A stretch of 36,092 nt of DNA from Zhongshania aliphaticivorans (GTDB lineage: Bacteria > Pseudomonadota > Gammaproteobacteria > Pseudomonadales > Spongiibacteraceae). The notes under the pieces are model-generated. The model did not search any database. It was not told the origin of the DNA and saw only the letters and a program-made list of their open reading frames with translations. Position numbers and translations under genes: made by a program. Within the stretch, counting starts at the first letter, position 1, and each line of letters begins with the position of its first letter. This document shows positions 6,867 through 30,167 of the stretch, one piece after another. The DNA lies in the NCBI RefSeq assembly GCF_902705855.1, contig NZ_CACSIJ010000012.1, positions 60 to 36,151 of the forward strand, in the 5' to 3' direction.

Positions 6867-7886
6867 TTATACGTAGTCATCATCGCCACGACCTAAATCA
6901 ATCTGACCGGCGTCTGCCAATTTTCTCGCCACTGCCAAAATATCTTTCTGTGCGGCTTCAACATCGCTAAGTTTCATAGGACCACGTGAGTCCATATCTT
7001 CTATGAGCATTTCTCGGGCGCGCTTAGACATATTGCCCATTATTTTTTCTTTTACCTGCTCGTCTGCACCCTTGAGCGCCAGCGGCAATACGTCTGAGCC
7101 GACTTCACGCAGCAGTAGCTGTATGCCTTTGTCAGGAATATTCACGAGATTACCAAACACGAACATAAGATCTTGTATGCGTTCAGACAGGGTTTGATTT
7201 TCTTTAGCGACCGCCTCTAGTATCCGCGTTTCGGAGTCTGGGTCGAGGCCATTCATAATACCGGCGACCGTCATAGCCCCGTCGATTTTGCGATTTTTAA
7301 ACGTCGCCGTGACTGACAACTTTTTCTTGAGAACGGCCTGCAACTGACGCATGGCAGATTGCGGAATAGTTTTCATATTCGCTATGCGCAATACAATGTC
7401 GTCTTGCAATGCGGGTGGCATTTGCTTGAGTACTGCCACCGCCTGAGCCTGATCCATATGCGCCATGGTAATAGCAATAATCTGTGGATGTTCATCTTGC
7501 AGCATATGCAGCAAGGCTTCTGGCTCTAACCAACGCAGCGAACTCATTTCTTGAGTTTCTTCATCACCTAAAACCCGATCCGCCAAGGTTGTGCCTTTTT
7601 GATCACCCAAAGTTGAGGTAAACAATTTGCGAACATAACCCTGCACCCCAACACCCAGCGATGTTTCTTGATGCAATGCACTACGAAAATCGTCAACCAC
7701 GGCCTCCGCCAAGCGATTGTCTACACTGCGGATAGACGCCATTGCCGTTCCAATTCGCTCTACCTCGTAAGGCTCTACAAACTTCAATACTTTAGACGCC
7801 TGCTCCTCGCCCAGCATCAGTAAAAATAAAGCCGCCTTCTCGCTTCCATTACCGCCGGAGTTACTCGCCATTTCAGGATTTGCCAT
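6867..7886 (-). CDS. fliG: FliG, flagellar motor switch protein
   Basis: FliG is the C-ring protein that joins the MS ring (FliF) to FliM/FliN and contacts the stator to produce torque. The 339-aa length is standard. The N-terminal domain contains KAALFLLMLGEEQASKVLKF. The middle domain has the EHPQ motif (LLHMLQDEHPQIIAITMAHM), and the C-terminal torque helix carries the charged block MSKRAREMLIEDMDSRGP. The start ATG 7886 overlaps the last codons of fliF by 14 bases, implying coupled translation of the two interacting proteins. ATG 7871 is a possible alternative start just past the fliF stop. Confidence 0.98.
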   Translation of the reverse strand: MANPEMASNSGGNGSEKAALFLLMLGEEQASKVLKFVEPYEVERIGTAMASIRSVDNRLAEAVVDDFRSALHQETSLGVGVQGYVRKLFTSTLGDQKGTTLADRVLGDEETQEMSSLRWLEPEALLHMLQDEHPQIIAITMAHMDQAQAVAVLKQMPPALQDDIVLRIANMKTIPQSAMRQLQAVLKKKLSVTATFKNRKIDGAMTVAGIMNGLDPDSETRILEAVAKENQTLSERIQDLMFVFGNLVNIPDKGIQLLLREVGSDVLPLALKGADEQVKEKIMGNMSKRAREMLIEDMDSRGPMKLSDVEAAQKDILAVARKLADAGQIDLGRGDDDYV

Positions 7887-9504
7887 TTTCTTCTGCCACC
7901 CATTTTTTCATTACTTGAGCAACTCGTTGCGGATTCTCGTCCACCACTGAGCGCACCTCGGTCATCTTGTCTTCAAAACCCATACGTCCGGCCATTGGCG
8001 GTGCACCTAGCGCCGCAATAGCTGGGTGTAAGACCTCGCCACTCACTCCGTCTGTACTACCATCAGGCAGCGCACGTGGCGCTGCCTGCGCGCCATTAAC
8101 TTGAGCTTGCATTAGGCTGCGCATGCCTGGGCGCAAAATCGCAAAAATAATAAATAACACCCCAATTCCAACCAGAGATTGCTTAACCAAATTTGCAAAC
8201 CACGGTAGCTCCCAGAATGCAGGTTCGCTCATGTCCATCTCGGCACTTTCTACCGGTCTGAAATCGGCAGATACCACGGTGACTCGATCACCGCGCGCCG
8301 CGTCAAAACCAATCGCATCACGTACTAACAAATTCAATTTCTCAAGCTCTACCGGCGACACCTCGACAGTGGCAGCGTTACCCTGTTCATCGGTACGTTG
8401 ACGATTAGCCACGACAACAGCGACCGAGAGACGACGCACCATACCCGTCGGTGTAGATGAGTGATTTAAGATCCGCTCTATCTCATAATTACGCACAATA
8501 GATCGATTGCCAGCTTCTGTTTTGGCGTCTTCCGTCGTGGCGGCAGCACCTGGCGGCTGATTACTTAAGGCACCCGGAATACCGCTGGCATTGGCATTTA
8601 CATTGCCTCCGGTCTGCTCATTTATTTGCTCGCTGCGTACAACCTTGCTGTCTGGACTCCAGCTTTCACGACTTTCTTCTACACTCGAAAAATCGATGTC
8701 CGCCGCAACTTTAACTCGGACCTGCCCCGCATCTGCTAAGGGCCCAAGTAATTCCTCAATACTTTGTTGATATGACTCTTCGATACGTTGACGATACGTA
8801 AATTGGCGAGAACTAAGGCCTAAATCATCCTTCTCACCTTGATACGACAACTGCTGCCCCTGTTGGTCAACCACCGTGACTTGCTCCGGCGCTAAACCGC
8901 TAATACTAGACGCGACCAAATTCACAATCGCACCAACGTTTTGCTTATCAATTACGCTACCAGGAAAAACATCCAACATAATTGATGCACTGGCAGCCTT
9001 GCGGTCACGCACAAATACCGATTGTTTAGGAATCGCCAAGTGAACTCGGGCTTTGCGAACTTGATGCATACTTTCAATTGTTCGTGCTAGCTCTTGCTCT
9101 AAGGCATAGTGAAATTTCTTAGACTGCATGAATTCACTCACGCCAAAACCTTGCTCCTGCTCTAACATCGCCATACCTGAACCGTCACGCATCACCCCCT
9201 GACCGGCCAGTTTTATGCGGGCATCGTGCAGTTGCTTTGATGGCACCATGATAGAGCCAGTACTGTCTTGAATCTTATAAGGGATACCCGCAGCGGTAAG
9301 TGCGTCCACTACACCGGCTGCGCGCTGCGGTTCCACATTGGCGTATAAGGTACGGAAGTCGCTACCTTGCGACCACATCACTGCTGCGACACCTACGGCA
9401 ACACTCGCCGCGATTCCCACCAGTATCAACAATTGACGTAGTACATCGTTACTCGCCAGCTGAGCCAATAAATTGGCGGTCGGATTTGCTTTGGTTTCAG
9501 CCAT
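7873..9504 (-). CDS. fliF: FliF, flagellar MS-ring protein
   Basis: FliF builds the membrane-embedded MS ring that nucleates the basal body. The 543-aa protein has an N-terminal membrane segment (residues about 23-45, LLILVGIAASVAVGVAAVMW), the YscJ/FliF ring-building domain with LARTIESMHQVRKARVHLAI and PKQSVFVRDRK, a second ring domain, and a second membrane segment near 433-457 (VGIGVLFIIFAIL). The C-terminal FliG-binding tail is at about 510-543. ATG 9504 has GGAG seven bases upstream. It begins 39 bases after fliE and overlaps fliG. Confidence 0.98.
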   Translation of the reverse strand: MAETKANPTANLLAQLASNDVLRQLLILVGIAASVAVGVAAVMWSQGSDFRTLYANVEPQRAAGVVDALTAAGIPYKIQDSTGSIMVPSKQLHDARIKLAGQGVMRDGSGMAMLEQEQGFGVSEFMQSKKFHYALEQELARTIESMHQVRKARVHLAIPKQSVFVRDRKAASASIMLDVFPGSVIDKQNVGAIVNLVASSISGLAPEQVTVVDQQGQQLSYQGEKDDLGLSSRQFTYRQRIEESYQQSIEELLGPLADAGQVRVKVAADIDFSSVEESRESWSPDSKVVRSEQINEQTGGNVNANASGIPGALSNQPPGAAATTEDAKTEAGNRSIVRNYEIERILNHSSTPTGMVRRLSVAVVVANRQRTDEQGNAATVEVSPVELEKLNLLVRDAIGFDAARGDRVTVVSADFRPVESAEMDMSEPAFWELPWFANLVKQSLVGIGVLFIIFAILRPGMRSLMQAQVNGAQAAPRALPDGSTDGVSGEVLHPAIAALGAPPMAGRMGFEDKMTEVRSVVDENPQRVAQVMKKWVAEENGKS

Positions 9505-9543: not shown

Positions 9544-9894
9544 TTACATCGACATCCTCATCACTTCTTGATAGGCATCCACAAACTTATTCCGCACTTC
9601 TACCATGGCTTTAAAACTAACTTCAGACTTTTGCAGATTAACCATCACCTGCGTCAAACTAACGTTGTCATCACCACGTTCGAACGCTGCCGACATGGCA
9701 CCTGCATTTTTCTGAGTTTCATTAACCGCATCAATAGACTGCTTAAGCATCGAACCAAAATCGACTTTCGGCGTAGCACCAACATTAATTGCGCCAAGGC
9801 TATTAACATCGCCTTCTGGCCGTGCAATCGCCGTCTGGTCGCGGAGCGAGCGAATTTGGGTGAGAATCTGATCTACTTTCATATCCGACATCAT
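9544..9894 (-). CDS. fliE: FliE, MS ring-rod junction protein
   Basis: FliE is the first exported rod component and the adaptor between the FliF ring and the rod. The 116-aa size fits, and the C-terminal half carries the conserved pattern VNLQKSEVSFKAMVEVRNKF followed by VDAYQEVMRM. The start ATG 9894 has AAGGAG six bases upstream, and that ribosome site abuts the fleR stop codon (TAAGGAG). fliE therefore very probably shares the fleR transcript, starting only 8 bases after it. In many relatives fliE has its own sigma-54 promoter; none was seen in the tiny gap. Confidence 0.97.
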   Translation of the reverse strand: MMSDMKVDQILTQIRSLRDQTAIARPEGDVNSLGAINVGATPKVDFGSMLKQSIDAVNETQKNAGAMSAAFERGDDNVSLTQVMVNLQKSEVSFKAMVEVRNKFVDAYQEVMRMSM

Positions 9895-9902
9895 TCGTCT
9901 CC

Positions 9903-10901
9903 TTAACCTGCGATATAACTTTGTTCACGTAGACGCGCCAATTTGTAACGCAAAGTACGTGGACTAATACCGAGGATTTCGGCTGCTTCTTTTTTCGACC
10001 GACCAGCTCTAAGTGCATCGCTGATCACTCGACGCTCCTGATCTCGCATATAACCATTAAGCACACCACTACTGTCAGTAGAGATATGATCTTCAACGCT
10101 AGATCGTGGCGCGTCCATGCTATAGCACTCGTCATAATCACTGATAAAACTCAAGCCGGTTTCAAACTGAATATCGCGATCAGTAATGTGGTCTTGCTGA
10201 CGAAGTATCAACGCGCGCTGAATCACATTATCTAGCTCTCGTACATTACCTGGCCACGCGTAGCCGAGCAGCTTATTCACGGCGTCTTCGCTTAACATCG
10301 CAGCGGGATCGATCACACTACTGTCGCGACTTAGAAAATACTGCGCCAAGGGAATAATATCGCCACGACGATCCGCAAGACTGGGAATAAACAAGGGGAA
10401 AACATTCAAACGGTAAAACAAATCTTCGCGGAAATCGCCGTCACGTACCGCAGCGCGAACATCGCGATTACTGGTAGCAATTACCCGGACATCCAGTTTC
10501 AATGTCTTGCGACTACCCAAGCGCTCCAATTCACGCTCTTGCAATACTCGCAACAATTTACTTTGCAGACCAAGATCCATCTCAGAAATTTCGTCTAGTA
10601 ATAAGGTGCCGCCCTGCGCCTGTTCAAACTTACCCGTATGACTATTAATAGCGCCGGTAAACGCACCCTTCTCATAACCAAACAACATTGCCTCTAGCAT
10701 GTTTTCTGGAATAGCAGCACAGTTCAGGGCAATGAATGGCCCATCAGCTCGACTTGACTCTGCATGAATATAACGAGCGTACACCTCTTTACCTGCGCCG
10801 CTTTTACCACTAATCAATACTGTGGCCTCGGTCTTTGCCACTCGAGCGGCTAATTCCCTAACCGATTTCGATGCCTTATCAGCCACTATCAAATCAGCCA
10901 T
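9903..10901 (-). CDS. fleR: FleR/FlrC-type sigma-54 activator lacking a receiver domain
   Basis: This is the class III flagellar activator of sigma-54 promoters (332 aa). Walker A is GKSGAGKE (32-39), the sigma-54 contact loop GAFTGA is at 79-84, and Walker B GGTLLLDE is at 97-104. The C-terminal Fis-type helix-turn-helix includes [20 protein letters not shown]. The match to Pseudomonas FleR is clear across the AAA+ core (for example [16 protein letters not shown]). Known FleR/FlrC proteins carry an N-terminal receiver phosphorylated by FleS/FlrB. Here only about 31 residues precede Walker A, so phosphorylation control is absent. ATG 10901 is chosen for its strong GGAGG eight bases upstream. 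Longer in-frame readings lack a ribosome site and are not receiver-like. The start overlaps the stop of the 58-aa ORF. Confidence 0.93.
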
Positions 10902-11070
10902 TTTTACGACCTCCAACAACCACAACATTATTCGCAGCCATACTCTTTGCGACCAATAGTTCGGCAGATAGCCGTTGTGTGGCATAAATTACTTCTTGAT
11001 GACAGAGATCTAAATAGCGACTACTTAAAGCCGCATCAAAATTACCGTTCTTGTTGTTGTCTCTGTTCAT
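10894..11070 (-). CDS. 58-aa small protein in the fleS position, coupled to fleR
   Basis: A short frame from ATG 11070 to TGA 10894-10896 encodes 58 residues: [20 protein letters not shown], then a helical middle ([20 protein letters not shown]) and an end [10 protein letters not shown]. Its stop overlaps the fleR start by eight bases (ATGGCTGA), and the fleR ribosome site lies inside it, so the two are probably translationally coupled. It sits downstream of a good sigma-54 promoter (11107-11122) with an AAGAG-type ribosome site. It occupies the exact slot of the histidine kinase gene fleS in Pseudomonas order. I recognise no family. It could be a small regulator of FleR, a leader peptide, or a leftover of an ancestral gene. 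The coding call rests on context, not homology. Confidence 0.6.
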
Positions 11071-11106
11071 AACCGTAGACTCTTAATTATTACCTACGAA
11101 CAGTAA

Positions 11107-11122
11107 AGCAATCGCCATGCCA
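11107..11122 (-). promoter_or_regulatory. Sigma-54 promoter for the small ORF-fleR-fliE operon
   Basis: Read on the minus strand, the site is TGGCATGGCGATTGCT. GG (-24) and GC (-12) are separated by exactly 10 bases, with TGGCA and TTGCT matching the sigma-54 consensus. A start point near 11096 would leave a leader of about 26 bases before ATG 11070. This places fleR and fliE-fliK under a sigma-54 activator, presumably the FleQ-type protein encoded just upstream. Confidence 0.82.
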
Positions 11123-11413
11123 TTAAAAATAACCCTTAAAATACAACACCTTACAAAACAAAAAAGATGTTATGACGGTTTTTTGGCGGGTGTATTTTTA
11201 GAGATTTATAAATTCTGAAAATAATATTTTTTTCTTATACAAAATAATGATATTAATTTTAATACGCGAAGAATTCTGCAAACAGTTTTTGCATACCGTA
11301 GAATTATGCGTATAAAATTACGAAAATAAGGTAAGAGAAGAAATTACGTCTGCTTTGCACAAAGCGTCTATATTTGGCTAAGGGTTATTATTATTTTAAT
11401 TGGCTTACTAGTA
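11123..11413. other. AT-rich intergenic region between fleQ and the fleR operon
   Basis: A strongly AT-rich stretch with A and T runs, following the fleQ stop at 11414. It contains the nested palindrome at 11262-11313 and a small palindrome GCTTTGCACAAAGC at 11352-11365. No reading frame of note was seen. It probably holds the fleQ transcript end and regulatory sequence upstream of the sigma-54 promoter, such as an activator or IHF/H-NS site. The roles are inferred. Confidence 0.45.
11262..11313. promoter_or_regulatory. Nested palindrome upstream of the fleR operon
   Basis: Three concentric inverted repeats share one centre region: ATACGC (11262-11267) with GCGTAT (11308-11313), AATTC (11272-11276) with GAATT (11301-11305), and TGCAAA (11277-11282) with TTTGCA (11288-11293). 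A 7-base bulge, TACCGTA, interrupts the right arm. It lies about 140 bases upstream of the sigma-54 -24 element, a usual distance for enhancer-binding proteins. A fleQ transcript terminator or an RNA structure is also possible. Confidence 0.45.
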
Positions 11414-12511
11414 TTACAATACGCCAAGCTTCTTCATTTTTTCTGCCAATGTTGTACGTTGCAATCCGAGCAACTGGGCCGCGCGGGTTATTACCCCATC
11501 TTCTTTGCGAAGTGCTTCAGAAATAAACCACTGTTCAATATCTTGCAGATACGATTTCAAATCGATGCCGTCTGCGGGGAGTGGTGGCTTGCCATTGCTA
11601 GACTCGACCGAAAATACCACCTCAGAGTCTTCTTCATGAGAAGGACGGGCTAGTAATGAGGTCATCAGTGCATCTTGATCTTCACGCTCTTCGTCGGCAT
11701 CGAGATCAACTACACCCATAGTGCGAAATTGTTTCGGCAGATCATTCATACTCACCAGCTTACCGCTATGAGTAATAGCGAGGCGCTCCATCAAGTTTTC
11801 AAGTTCGCGAATATTACCCGGCCAACCGTAAAGCTTTAAGGCCCGCATAGCGCTGGCAGAAAAACGTGGCGTGCGCATACCTTTGGCTTCAAGCTTTTCC
11901 ATAAAGATCGACATCAAGGTCGCCACATCTTCCGTGTGCTCACGTAGCGCTGGAACTTCGATAGGAAATACATCTAGGCGATAAAATAGATCTTCGCGGA
12001 AAGTACCCTCTTTAACCATTTCTTCAAGATTGCGATGCGTTGCCGCCAATATGCGAACATTGCAACGTTTTGTCTCGTTACTGCCAACACGTTCAAAACA
12101 ACGCTCTTGTAAGACTCGCAACAATTTAACCTGCATCGGCAAACTCATATCGCCGATTTCGTCTAAAAATAAGGTACCGCCTTCAGCCAATTCAAAGCGC
12201 CCCTGACGGGTCGCAATAGCCCCGGTAAACGCGCCTTTCTCATGGCCAAACAGCTCGCTCTCAAGTAGATCGGCAGGAATGGCACCGCAGTTCACGGGAA
12301 CAAAGGCTTTGGTAGCACGTGGCGATGAGTCGTGAATACGGCGGGCCACAACCTCTTTACCACTACCAGATTCACCGCGAATAAGCACTAAGGTGTCGAA
12401 TGTCGATACCTGAGAAATCAATTCATCAAGATCGCGCATCGCTGGTGACTCCATCGTCTTCTTGGCAATCAGATCGTAACCATCAGAGATCAATTTATTA
12501 TTCTGCTGCAT
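11414..12511 (-). CDS. fleQ: FleQ/FlrA-type sigma-54 master activator lacking its N-terminal domain
   Basis: This is the class I master regulator type (365 aa). Walker A GESGSGKE is at 46-53, GAFTGA at 93-98 and Walker B GGTLFLDE at 111-118. The core (VPVNCGAIPADLLESELFGH) and the C-terminal helix-turn-helix ending LLGLQRTTLAEKMKKLGVL closely resemble FleQ. Pseudomonas FleQ is about 490 aa with an N-terminal FleQ domain. Here an in-frame TGA sits 18 bases before ATG 12511, and only 254 bases separate it from fliT, so the domain is truly absent. The LFRS motif that binds c-di-GMP before Walker A in FleQ is not visible (YDLIAKKTMES instead). The ribosome site is weak. It probably activates the flgB, flgA and fleR sigma-54 promoters. 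Confidence 0.9.
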   Translation of the reverse strand: MQQNNKLISDGYDLIAKKTMESPAMRDLDELISQVSTFDTLVLIRGESGSGKEVVARRIHDSSPRATKAFVPVNCGAIPADLLESELFGHEKGAFTGAIATRQGRFELAEGGTLFLDEIGDMSLPMQVKLLRVLQERCFERVGSNETKRCNVRILAATHRNLEEMVKEGTFREDLFYRLDVFPIEVPALREHTEDVATLMSIFMEKLEAKGMRTPRFSASAMRALKLYGWPGNIRELENLMERLAITHSGKLVSMNDLPKQFRTMGVVDLDADEEREDQDALMTSLLARPSHEEDSEVVFSVESSNGKPPLPADGIDLKSYLQDIEQWFISEALRKEDGVITRAAQLLGLQRTTLAEKMKKLGVL

Positions 12512-12765: not shown

Positions 12766-13113
12766 TTACACCGAGCTGTTGCTTAAATAGCGATCTACAT
12801 TGCGAATATTACGGCAAGACTGATTCGCTTCCTGCGACAAGGTGCCACGCTGGCGATACAACATGTCGGTCACGTCTTTATCTACCAGCAGCATGCTCTC
12901 AATTGCACTAGCAACGGCACTACTCTCAGCCGGACTGCAGGGCATTGCAAAAAATTTATCAATCATTGAACGGCGACGACGCTGCTCGCTAAGCGCCCCA
13001 GCCCAATCGTTTTGTTCAGCCAGCTCACGAATCTGCTCAGTAAGCATAAGCAAGGCCTGCAAACTCTGCTGCCTGACAGTAAGTGCGGTCGAGATATTTT
13101 CAATATTATTCAT
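12766..13113 (-). CDS. fliT: FliT-like flagellar chaperone
   Basis: A 115-aa, mostly helical protein directly after fliS, in the position of fliT, whose product is the export chaperone of the cap protein FliD. Features are a helical N-terminus (LQALLMLTEQIRELAEQNDW), the ERR/QRRRRSMIDKFF-type turn found in FliT proteins, and a helical C-terminus. FliT sequences diverge strongly, so the call rests on size, fold character and position. Start ATG 13113 has AAAGGTGG four to eight bases upstream. A TTG 30 bases earlier is rejected. It is followed by 254 bases without a gene before fleQ. Confidence 0.75.
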   Translation of the reverse strand: MNNIENISTALTVRQQSLQALLMLTEQIRELAEQNDWAGALSEQRRRRSMIDKFFAMPCSPAESSAVASAIESMLLVDKDVTDMLYRQRGTLSQEANQSCRNIRNVDRYLSNSSV

Positions 13114-13191
13114 TATCCACCTTTGAAGTTGCTCCACCCGCAACCTGCGCGCCGCAGGCAGAGCAAAACTGAATCCAGCACAACGCCATTC

Positions 13192-17582: not shown

Positions 17583-18551
17583 CTACAACTTATAGGCAAA
17601 GGTTAAACGTCCAAACTGCGTCAAATCCTGCAGTTCACTGTTCACTATATCTAGGTCGCTCAAGGCAAAAGTTAAAGAATATCGTTGTAGGGAATAGCGA
17701 ACGCCAACGGTAGCTCCCAACCTACTATGTTCATACTTTATAGAACGACTATCACGAAAGGTGTTTCCATCGGTATAGATTTGATTGAATATATATTCCA
17801 AGTTTAAGCCGAGATATAGATTCCAACCGACACCAATTGCCCGTGGATTTGTAATTCTCGCACTATCTAGTAGCGTTGTGCCATATGAGCTCGCCAGCTG
17901 TGTTCCGTAACGAAGAAAACCGCCAAGATTTATTCCGCTGGAAATTGTTCCTATATTAATCTCATTGGTGGCGATAAAATCCCAATCCATACTATCAGCC
18001 ACCCATAAGCGCCTCGCCCTGCCTCGGTCAAATTGAAATACTAATTCATTCTTAATCTGAGTATCCCAGCCTTGCGGCTGATCTGATGACAATAATTTAT
18101 GAATGACTTTCTGCGAATTCTCTGCCATAGAAAGAGGCCCAACGAAGCCGAGAGACGTACTTACTTTTTCCACATACTTATCTGCGAACAACAGGTAGCT
18201 ACTATTGACAAAAAGCAAGCCAGAGTATGGCAGTTCGTCTTCTGGAGGGTTCGGTTCTGATATATTTTGAGGCGTTATCATCGACTGCCCCACCGAGAGA
18301 ATGCTAACTGCACTACTAAAATGCTCGTCAGAAATAGTCCACATTAATGGCCTCAACAACCATGTGGCCTTAGGATGCCGCCCGTCATTTCCTGTATCGT
18401 AGAGAGACAAATACAGTCCATTGGTATAGCCGCCGTCGCTACCCACAAAAAAATCATTATCAAAAGCAAAGGACACCCAGTCTGTCTCTGCACGCACAGA
18501 AAAAGCCAAAGACCCAAGGATAAGAAATAGACCACAAACAGATAAGCGCAT
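17583..18551 (-). CDS. lpxR: LpxR-family lipid A 3'-O-deacylase (DUF2219)
   Basis: LpxR enzymes are 12-stranded outer-membrane barrels that remove the 3'-acyloxyacyl chain of lipid A. From ATG 18551 the protein is 322 aa with signal peptide MRLSVCGLFLILGSLAFSVR and cleavage near AETD. Family hallmarks are FAFDNDFFVGSDGGYTNGLY (Asn32, Asp33, Thr43, matching catalytic/Ca-binding positions of known LpxR), VGPLSMAENSQKVIHKLL (His151) and GWD at 161-163. It ends in a beta-strand with terminal aromatic/hydrophobic residues (FGRLTFAYKL). An upstream GTG at 18620 is rejected, since it would bury the signal peptide. The ribosome site is weak. Its place between flgL and fliC is unusual for the family. 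Confidence 0.82.
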   Translation of the reverse strand: MRLSVCGLFLILGSLAFSVRAETDWVSFAFDNDFFVGSDGGYTNGLYLSLYDTGNDGRHPKATWLLRPLMWTISDEHFSSAVSILSVGQSMITPQNISEPNPPEDELPYSGLLFVNSSYLLFADKYVEKVSTSLGFVGPLSMAENSQKVIHKLLSSDQPQGWDTQIKNELVFQFDRGRARRLWVADSMDWDFIATNEINIGTISSGINLGGFLRYGTQLASSYGTTLLDSARITNPRAIGVGWNLYLGLNLEYIFNQIYTDGNTFRDSRSIKYEHSRLGATVGVRYSLQRYSLTFALSDLDIVNSELQDLTQFGRLTFAYKL

Positions 18552-18909
18552 AAACACCGTATTACATATACCGCCAAGAAAGCGTTGAACTGACAGTCGA
18601 TAAAAATTATTCCGCCCCACGCAATACCCGACACCATATACTACTCAAAATCGTAGCAGATGACGGCCAGCAGCCATGGCAAAAGATATGAGTAATATAC
18701 CACTTTTAAGAAATTCAGCACCGCACTGAATTCCAAAACGGATACTTATGAAGATACACCTAGAGGTTTTAGTGTAAGCAACGATGAGGGTATATATGGT
18801 ATTAACTCGAAGAAAGTCCCGACGTGGCCATCCCTAATTTAAATAGCCGAAAATCAAAAGCCTAAAGCGCCAGCGTCGCCAGATCTAATGGACCGTCACC
18901 ACTCCCTGT
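18552..18909. other. Intergenic region between flgL and lpxR
   Basis: This 358-base gap lies downstream of flgL and upstream of lpxR (both minus). It holds one hairpin at 18712-18732 and probably the lpxR promoter, but no convincing -35/-10 or sigma-54/sigma-28 site was found. No short gene is supported. Confidence 0.45.
18712..18732 (-). terminator. Possible terminator after flgKL
   Basis: AATTCAG (18712-18718) pairs with CTGAATT (18726-18732) around a 7-base loop. In the direction of flgL transcription the stem is followed by TCTTAAAAG, a short T-rich tail. It would separate the flgKL message from lpxR. Confidence 0.35.
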
Positions 18910-28357: not shown

Positions 28358-28777
28358 TTAGCGACCTCCCTGCAAGATTGATTTCATACCACTGAAGCGA
28401 CTCCCCAAGAATGACAACGTGGCTTGATAGCGCATGGCATTGTCGGCAAACTCCGCCTGCTCCACATGGGTGTCGACGGTGTTACCATCTTCCGAAGGCT
28501 GAGTAGGCACTCTATATTTAAGATCCATCGACAAAGCATCCGCACTGACATCGGTAGCTACCTGCATATGTCCACTATTTGTAGTGCGCATCGCCAACTG
28601 GGTAGATTGAGTAGCTGCGGCCGACTGCGACAACACAGCTTTAAAATCTATGTCTTGCGCCTTGTAGCCAGGCGTATCGGCATTCGCTATATTTGTAGCA
28701 AGCACTTCGTTGCGCTTGTGACGCACTTGTAAAGCTTGCTCGTGTATCCCTAGCGCTTTATCAAAGTTAATAGACAT
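28358..28777 (-). CDS. flgB: FlgB, proximal rod protein
   Basis: FlgB is the most proximal of the Flg rod subunits and the first gene of the large flgB-flgL operon. From ATG 28777 it is 139 aa: MSINFDKALGIHEQALQVRH, NEVLATNIANADTPGYKAQD, and the C-terminal DTHVEQAEFADNAMRYQATL SFLGSRFSG. In-frame codons further upstream (to 28891) run into the sigma-54 promoter and are not coding; ATG 28789 is a close alternative start. The ribosome site is modest. The promoter at 28875-28890 leaves a leader of about 86 bases. Confidence 0.97.
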   Translation of the reverse strand: MSINFDKALGIHEQALQVRHKRNEVLATNIANADTPGYKAQDIDFKAVLSQSAAATQSTQLAMRTTNSGHMQVATDVSADALSMDLKYRVPTQPSEDGNTVDTHVEQAEFADNAMRYQATLSFLGSRFSGMKSILQGGR

Positions 28778-28874
28778 TTTTAAACCCATTCTTTCTAAAG
28801 TTTTTATGGCCGCCGCCGATGTATTTAATGGCCTTGGCACATATCGGCTTTCATCGCCGTGTACTAACGAGCAA

Positions 28875-28890
28875 GGCAAGGCTCGTGCCA
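28875..28890 (-). promoter_or_regulatory. Sigma-54 promoter of flgB operon
   Basis: On the minus strand the site is TGGCACGAGCCTTGCC, with TGGCACG and TTGC fully matching the consensus and 10 bases between GG and GC. It is the best sigma-54 match in the window. Predicted start is near 28863. Confidence 0.9.
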
Positions 28891-29042
28891 AAAATTTTAA
28901 TTCAATATTTTCAATAACTTAAAAACCACTTTCTTTGATGATGCCAAAAATACGGCGCTAGTTTTCCATAATCGGCAAAATTCCGGCAGGCCTTATCCTC
29001 CGTATAAACCCTTATATTTTCCGTTAAGAAACGTCTCAACAC

Positions 29043-29870: not shown

Positions 29871-30167
29871 ATGGTCGACCGATTAGATGGCTCATCACTG
29901 AGTCAGCTCCGCAAATTAGATGGCGGGCGCGCTGGCGACAGCAAATCAGAAGGCGTCGGCGCCAATACAGCGCCAGCCAACAATGCACCGCCTATGACGG
30001 AAACGCCTTTAATGGAGCGTACTCGCGGGCAAATTAATAGTAGCGACGGCATAGACCGCCAGAAGGTTGACGCTATTAAAACGGCAATTCGCAATGGCGA
30101 ATTTAATATTGACGCCACAAAAGTCGTAGAAGCGATGATACATATGGAATCACTTACAGGCGCGTAA
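29871..30167 (+). CDS. flgM: FlgM, anti-sigma-28 factor
   Basis: FlgM holds FliA inactive until the hook is finished, then is exported. The 98-aa protein has a disordered N-terminal half rich in Gly, Ala, Asn and Pro, and the sigma-binding C-terminal helices IDRQKVDAIKTAIRNGEFNI followed by DATKVVEAMIHMES. ATG 29871 has GAGG eight bases upstream. Its stop overlaps the flgN start (TAATG). The sigma-28 promoter upstream gives autoregulation through FliA. Confidence 0.96.
   Translation: MVDRLDGSSLSQLRKLDGGRAGDSKSEGVGANTAPANNAPPMTETPLMERTRGQINSSDGIDRQKVDAIKTAIRNGEFNIDATKVVEAMIHMESLTGA

Follow-up and report, generated by a model that had tools for sequence, protein, structure and literature searches.

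Some sigma-54 activators, such as PspF and the HrpR-HrpS pair, have no N-terminal domain and are controlled by partner proteins. Burnham et al. (PMC7064773) propose that transcription of rod and hook genes is broadly coupled, among polar flagellates, to assembly of the MS ring and rotor via two-component systems of the FleSR type, the checkpoint being read by FleS in Pseudomonas aeruginosa and by FlrB in Vibrio cholerae (PMC7064773). In the same account, the flagellar system of Xanthomonas is without a flagellum-associated two-component system. Here we describe the fleQ-fleR region (positions 9903 to 12511) of a 36,092-nucleotide stretch of Zhongshania aliphaticivorans DNA (assembly GCF_902705855.1, contig NZ_CACSIJ010000012.1), hereafter the window. 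On the basis of sequence, we lean slightly toward reading this region as part of a polar-flagellar sigma-54 cascade whose upstream signal-input layer has been removed, apparently stepwise, and which would operate by the mechanism proposed below.

The locus resembles FleQ-FleS-FleR of Pseudomonas and FlrA-FlrB-FlrC of Vibrio in that its AAA+/helix-turn-helix proteins are orthologous by tree, the genes lie between fliS/fliT and fliE with sigma-54 promoter-like sites, and FleN and FlgM are kept. However, it has no FleQ/REC (receiver) domain, no cyclic di-GMP (c-di-GMP) signature, no FleS and no FleR receiver, and it contains an extra small open reading frame (ORF) before fleR, which is tightly joined to fliE. 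With PspF and HrpR-HrpS it shares the lack of a regulatory domain and, presumably, control by level and partner, whereas both proteins group with flagellar regulators and score below the cut-off of the PspF family (NCBIfam TIGR02974; FleQ 268.6 and FleR 249.9 bits versus 443.55). As in Xanthomonas, polar flagellation here goes with FlhF/FlhG and without a checkpoint kinase of the FleS type, but FleR is kept in receiver-less form with the small ORF just before it. The flagellar sigma-54 activator FlgR of Helicobacter pylori is also without one terminal domain, although it is the DNA-binding end that is missing while receiver and kinase are present (PMC3930126); in the present case it is the receiver end that is gone, with the helix-turn-helix kept. 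No prior description of a receiver-less FleR/FlrC or a receiver-less FleQ was found among titles and the openings of abstracts, a search that mostly excluded the subscription literature. The cascade itself is known; the stripped input layer appears new.

FleQ and FleR without N-terminal input domains

The source genome is near complete (3.95 Mb in 18 contigs, completeness 100) and was compared within a panel of 38 genomes comprising itself and relatives: 18 of its own genus, three of a sister genus and 17 order relatives. The two genera together are called the family (21 genomes; completeness 70% for G020, 84% for G003 and 89% for G019). Wider comparisons used an order-wide sample of 293 genomes, 174 of which had a FleR match, and 80 named loci, a non-random sample made up of the best matches to the window FleR. 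Quick trees were built on subsets of the loci (22 of 71 named rows for FleQ, without Q_G024 and N_L140, which had no Walker A pattern match; 35 of 80 for FleR).

The fleQ gene (11414..12511, minus strand) encodes a 365-residue AAA+ sigma-54 activator with a Fis-type helix-turn-helix, matching Sigma54_activat (PF00158, 240.4 bits), AAA_lid_14 and HTH_8 (PF02954, 43.8 bits), and groups with FleQ rather than FleR (support 100 on the FleQ side). Walker A and GAFTGA are both present and 45 residues precede Walker A; neither the FleQ/REC domain (PF06490) nor any other N-terminal domain was matched in the protein with Pfam, and the two PF06490 matches in the genome belong, by reading, to NtrC-like and FixJ-like regulators. 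Stop-to-stop open frames of FleQ span 361–427 residues in all 18 genomes of the genus, and 355 and 401 residues in two of the three sister-genus genomes, the third (G020, 70% complete) giving no match. FleQ was also matched in 13 order relatives, 11 of them with frames of 461–558 residues; the others are G034 (370) and G036 (375, near a contig start). The matches listed from the order-wide sample include further short FleQs, in G158 (390), G233 (382), G095 (394) and several more genomes, a few lying close to the start of a contig. In two short-FleQ loci from other families, fliT and fleQ are separated by an additional gene of 185–192 residues (L214 4283-4861, L213 7281-7838), which is absent from the window.

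We take the LFRS linker, N186 and E330 to be c-di-GMP residues of FleQ (P. aeruginosa numbering). These three features were present in none of the 18 FleQs of the genus, R334 in five and R185 in all; K180, R260, R300, R363 and I374 were likewise kept in 18/18. In 71 of the 80 named loci, for which residues were tabulated, N186 was found in 57, E330 in 60, R334 in 65 and an LFRS-like linker in 49; the signature is common among named FleQs, not universal. R144, R185 and R334 line the c-di-GMP site of P. aeruginosa FleQ (PMC10723142). Since the signature is gone, c-di-GMP control of this FleQ has probably been lost as well. The initial annotation had inferred loss of the phosphorylation and FleQ-domain inputs; the domains are indeed absent, but the REC domain of P. 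aeruginosa FleQ is phosphorylation-incompetent (PMC10723142), so what is lost from FleQ would be the REC dimer and the REC-AAA+ contact rather than a phosphorylation input.

The fleR gene (9903..10901, minus strand) encodes 332 residues with AAA+ and helix-turn-helix parts and no receiver, Walker A beginning at residue 33 and GAFTGA at residue 80. A longer, mechanically called ORF (9903-10985, minus strand) likewise matched Sigma54_activat, AAA_lid_14 and HTH_8 but no receiver. We place the start at the ATG at 10901 (MADLIVAD...), which is preceded by GGAGGT and lies 32 residues ahead of Walker A, because an equivalent methionine occurs in 18/18 genomes of the genus and in-frame conservation does not extend upstream of it. 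No N-terminal receiver with a phospho-acceptor aspartate was found by Pfam or by comparison within the genus. FleR open frames measure 316–386 residues in 18/18 genomes of the genus, versus 455 and 465 in two of the three sister-genus genomes and 469–541 in order relatives (12 with a match); among the matches listed from the 174 genomes, frames below 400 residues were confined to the genus (12 rows) and G149 (353 residues). FleR groups with FleR in the quick tree, adjoins fliE, and has as its closest solved structure a flagellar regulatory protein C chain (4qhs, E 9.1e-98). Of 108 positions conserved at 95% or more in 84 FleS-linked FleRs, 104 are kept in at least 17 of the 18 genomes, which indicates that the activator is under strong constraint.

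Both short proteins recognized in the initial annotation are thus real, retain Walker A, GAFTGA and the helix-turn-helix (Pfam and sequence), and recur in 18/18 genomes of the genus. An upstream frameshift hiding the N-terminal domains was considered and rejected, as both proteins have short open frames in all 18. PF00158 has 14 matches in the genome, eight of them strong, namely FleQ, FleR, a second FleQ-like protein (FleQ2, below) and five regulators with open frames of 463–490 residues that do not match FleR at E 1e-85. The suggested search for intact copies elsewhere returned none for FleS or FleR, but did uncover FleQ2.

Absence of FleS and graded loss across relatives

A FleS query from the order relative G025 matched strongly in nine further genomes of the order (8e-69 to 9e-102). 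In the source genome its best match had an E-value of only 5.0e-22, to generic kinases, and the family as a whole (21 genomes) yielded no FleS-grade match (best 4.9e-23, the top hits being mostly parts of longer kinases), in agreement with the absence of fleS noted initially. In the two sister-genus loci read, no gene lies between fleQ and fleR.

The losses look stepwise, since receiver states intermediate between those of FleS-bearing loci and of the genus occur in the sister genus. Two of its genomes combine a short FleQ and no FleS with a receiver that is either canonical-looking (G019, phospho-quintet DDDSK) or degenerate (G018, DSEAK); within the genus there is no receiver at all. We scored the quintet (acidic-Asp-Asp-Ser/Thr-Lys) in 117 FleR loci; leaving out L097, L099 and L122, which lie at contig ends, and counting G149 separately gave 113 loci, with FleS presence called above 75 bits (lowest accepted, G029, 82.9 bits). 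The quintet is intact in 86/87 FleS-bearing but only 1/26 FleS-less loci (Fisher p 9e-23, uncorrected for relatedness), the exceptions being the FleS-bearing L115, whose receiver is mostly missing on a draft contig, and the FleS-less G019. When the FleS-less loci were collapsed by hand to eight lineages (1/8 intact), the FleS-bearing side being left uncollapsed, p was 6e-9. Outside the family, FleS is missing from the lineages G027 and G034 (genome-wide), G158 (within 12 kb), and L168 and L143/L155 (in the available stretches only).

On the quick tree, receiver-less FleR corresponds to three changes: in the genus, in L143 with L155, and in G149. The last shows the reverse oddity, a FleS-like fragment of 251 residues (67.8 bits) beside its receiver-less FleR (L195, G149:C171). 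Short FleQ coexists with FleS and an intact receiver in L093, G233 and G095, indicating that FleQ shortening and FleS loss are separable steps. Where the initial annotation took the locus as a single case, the comparison shows it throughout the genus and in graded form across the family, with short FleQ and receiver decay turning up in other lineages too.

FleQ and FleR of the family group weakly with named loci from metagenome-assembled genomes and not with the order's own; both stand near the short-FleQ locus L093 (support 88 and 82), which is nearest for FleR. The grouping hints at a horizontal origin of the cluster, which we regard as a lead only.

A small open reading frame between promoter and fleR

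A sigma-54 (-24/-12) promoter-like site, TGGCATGGCGATTGC (11108..11122, minus strand), differs by one mismatch from TGGCACGNNNNTTGC. Between it and fleR lies the small ORF (10894..11070, minus strand; 58 residues plus stop), which belongs to no family found, starts 52 nucleotides past the first base of the promoter motif and ends in a TGA that overlaps the fleR start region. Sites of this kind (at most two mismatches, within 700 nucleotides) were found upstream of fleR in 20/20 family genomes examined. They lie 203–259 nucleotides before the receiver-less fleR of the genus; in the sister genus, whose fleR encodes a receiver, the distances to the assumed start are 54 and 56 nucleotides.

ATG-started counterparts of 51–64 codons occupy the same interval in all 18 genomes of the genus, at 47–55 nucleotides from the first base of the promoter in 17 and at 72 in G004; given this spacing, the small ORF appears to start where the receiver-bearing FleR of the sister genus starts. 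Counted from the fleR start, its stop codon finishes at -1, +4 or +8 in 18/18, and the ORF stays with fleR where fleR does not adjoin fleQ (G009, G012, G015). In coding tests, which omitted the final four codons, six disjoint genome pairs gave a proportion of synonymous differences (pS) of 0.53 versus 0.24 for nonsynonymous differences (pN) in protein-guided codon alignments, and differences at codon positions 1, 2 and 3 numbered 79, 75 and 142, each of 328. This pattern indicates that the small ORF is under purifying selection.

The protein itself diverges fast (13–72% identity to the window copy) around an invariant glutamate (E26) and a conserved central segment. A model built from all 18 proteins found one copy per genome of the genus, by construction, and none in the three sister-genus genomes. 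Searches against Pfam and PHROG gave single-member matches only (best E 0.056 and 0.0081). Homology to FliT/FliD was considered and rejected: a profile of eight distant proteins gave weak matches (E ~0.05-5) among 41,951 frames, and those to frames in FliT/FliD positions, assigned by reading, were taken to reflect helix-like composition. AlphaFold predicted one long helix (residues 3–55, mean predicted local distance difference test score 86) from the single sequence, a run that, being without an alignment, says little on the fold; the small protein is probably helical.

Promoter and operon context

The fliE gene (9544..9894, minus strand) begins 8 nucleotides past the fleR stop and is followed by a fliF-like ORF (7873-9504, minus strand, by reading). 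This same-strand arrangement suggests that fleR is probably in the MS-ring operon. With 8–25 nucleotides between fleR and fliE in 20/20 family genomes, a promoter of its own for fliE would have little space; the gap varies widely in FleS-bearing loci, small ones among them. Upstream of fleQ is a fliT-like gene (12766..13143, minus strand), whose PF05400 score of 27.2 bits falls below the Pfam cut-off of 29.5.

The first of two rod-gene ORFs (28358-28891, flgB by its position) has at its 5' end a perfect sigma-54 promoter match (28876..28890, minus strand), which is likely a FleR target. The true flgB start is probably further downstream, because the Pfam match begins only at residue 49. The anti-sigma-28 gene flgM (29871..30167, plus strand), which serves a later checkpoint, is kept; fliA was identified by reading in the same genome, which has one RpoN. 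A gene for an LpxR-type (PF09982) outer-membrane protein also lies inside the flagellar cluster (window 17583-18620).

FleN, FleQ2 and FleN2

A FleN orthologue (E 3.6e-92 to a P. aeruginosa FleN chain) occurs in 18/18 genomes of the genus and 3/3 of the sister genus; in the source genome it adjoins an flhF-type gene (PF00448) and, by reading, fliA. P. aeruginosa FleN is bound to the AAA+ part of FleQ in a structure (PMC10723142). FleQ2 (G000:C1:401474-402445; L086 9472-10812), a protein of 446 residues with a degenerate N-terminus, is present in 18/18 genomes of the genus, where the N-terminus is missing in G004 and G010, and forms its own group in the FleQ tree. Its neighbors are non-flagellar and mostly conserved in 10 genomes read, and no c-di-GMP signature was found in the 10 of 18 genomes in which its residues were read. 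A second FleN, FleN2, occurs in 18/18; neither FleQ2 nor FleN2 was found in the three sister-genus genomes at the cut-offs used. FleQ2 was considered as a full-length FleQ and rejected, having a longer N-terminus but no PF06490 match and no c-di-GMP signature.

A second switch-complex set also lies outside the flagellar cluster, at G000:C1 ~217.6-224.3 kb (L207 7600-14347). It comprises FliG, Hpt, FliM, FliN, a 188-residue protein, FleN2, a CheY-like receiver and an Hpt protein, with no export apparatus in the stretch read; L208, L209, L212 and partly L210 are similar by reading, Pfam having been run on L207 only.

Discussion

With the phosphorylation and FleQ-domain inputs gone, control must, as the initial annotation argued, come from elsewhere; the recognized partner FleN is kept throughout the genus. 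In the mechanism that we propose, FleQ restrained by FleN would fire the sigma-54 promoter ahead of the small ORF, and one transcript would yield the small protein, FleR and then FliE, FliF and FliG together. FleR would be active without phosphorylation, so that the MS-ring/rotor checkpoint read by FleS would be replaced by co-synthesis in one operon, while FliA/FlgM would keep the later hook-completion checkpoint. Phosphorylation-free action of FleR is plausible because constitutively active FlrC supports V. cholerae motility (PMC3930126). The small, probably helical protein may take over from the lost receiver in acting on FleR, most likely by restraining it stoichiometrically or by aiding assembly. 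More tentatively, we suggest that a response-regulator gene was rebuilt as two: the receiver went, and a new protein of ~58 residues, to which no relation of the receiver could be detected, is made where the old gene started, is coupled to FleR in translation and gates it in trans; the genus would then run its rod/hook switch without phosphorylation, c-di-GMP or an MS-ring checkpoint kinase.

The small ORF might instead be a translational-coupling leader whose product has no role in trans, with FleR constitutive and its level alone mattering. A stop at -1, +4 or +8 in 18/18 genomes, last codons that hold the Shine-Dalgarno stretch of fleR, and the fast divergence of the protein would all fit such a leader. 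We nevertheless consider it rather doubtful, as the amino-acid-level constraint goes beyond an open frame and was measured without the last four codons, and as E26 and the central segment are conserved. VemR of Xanthomonas is directly linked to FleQ. The missing input could likewise arrive in trans here, from an orphan kinase or receiver or from the FleQ2/FleN2 pair, which is found across the genus but not in the sister genus; VemR, a stand-alone response regulator in sigma-54 flagellar control, offers a parallel (PMC6637908, PMC9218911). This seems improbable, because a kinase would find no receiver on FleR, FleQ2 and FleN2 are both encoded outside the flagellar cluster, with FleN2 next to another FliG/FliM/FliN set, and FleQ2 is without the c-di-GMP signature where read. 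We give hardly any credence to errors of assembly or sequencing, or to decay of the flagellar system: nothing speaks for either beyond the missing domains themselves, whereas the same architecture recurs in 18/18 genomes of the genus, including the single-contig G004, G011 and G015, AAA+ and helix-turn-helix conservation is strong, and the neighboring flagellar genes checked are open.

Several observations weigh against the removal of the input layer by the proposed route. G019 keeps an intact receiver despite having no FleS, and a FleS-grade match is also missing in 7 of the 17 order relatives (G022, G027, G029, G033, G034, G035 and G037); at the cut-off used, G022, G033, G035 and G037 were without a FleQ match too, and G029 has a divergent kinase of 322 residues between fleQ and fleR. 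The REC domain is required for activity of P. aeruginosa FleQ (PMC10723142), so a REC-less FleQ must work differently and oligomerize without REC contacts. FleQ2 could supply part of the missing control. The number of promoter motifs in the window is not significant (17 sites with at most two mismatches versus 13.3 expected, 13 of 100 shuffles having as many), and support for the fleR promoter therefore comes from its conservation. For the small ORF, protein-guided alignment favors a low pN, and synonymous change was too saturated for a ratio of nonsynonymous to synonymous rates (dN/dS) in 5 of 10 pairs tried. A model from ten of its counterparts found the other eight at E 0.38 or worse, or not, so that their orthology follows mainly from position and frame geometry, and profile comparison of the small protein with FleR receivers and FleS gave probabilities below 1%.

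On the proposed reading, the genus keeps FleN and the activator and has lost the checkpoint kinase, with intermediates in the sister genus, which makes two questions testable. One is whether polar flagellation needs an assembly checkpoint, for which the genus is a natural test. The other is how a two-component pair is dismantled, with the kinase going first, followed by receiver decay and then receiver loss. The small protein would be a candidate for a new type of partner of a sigma-54 activator.

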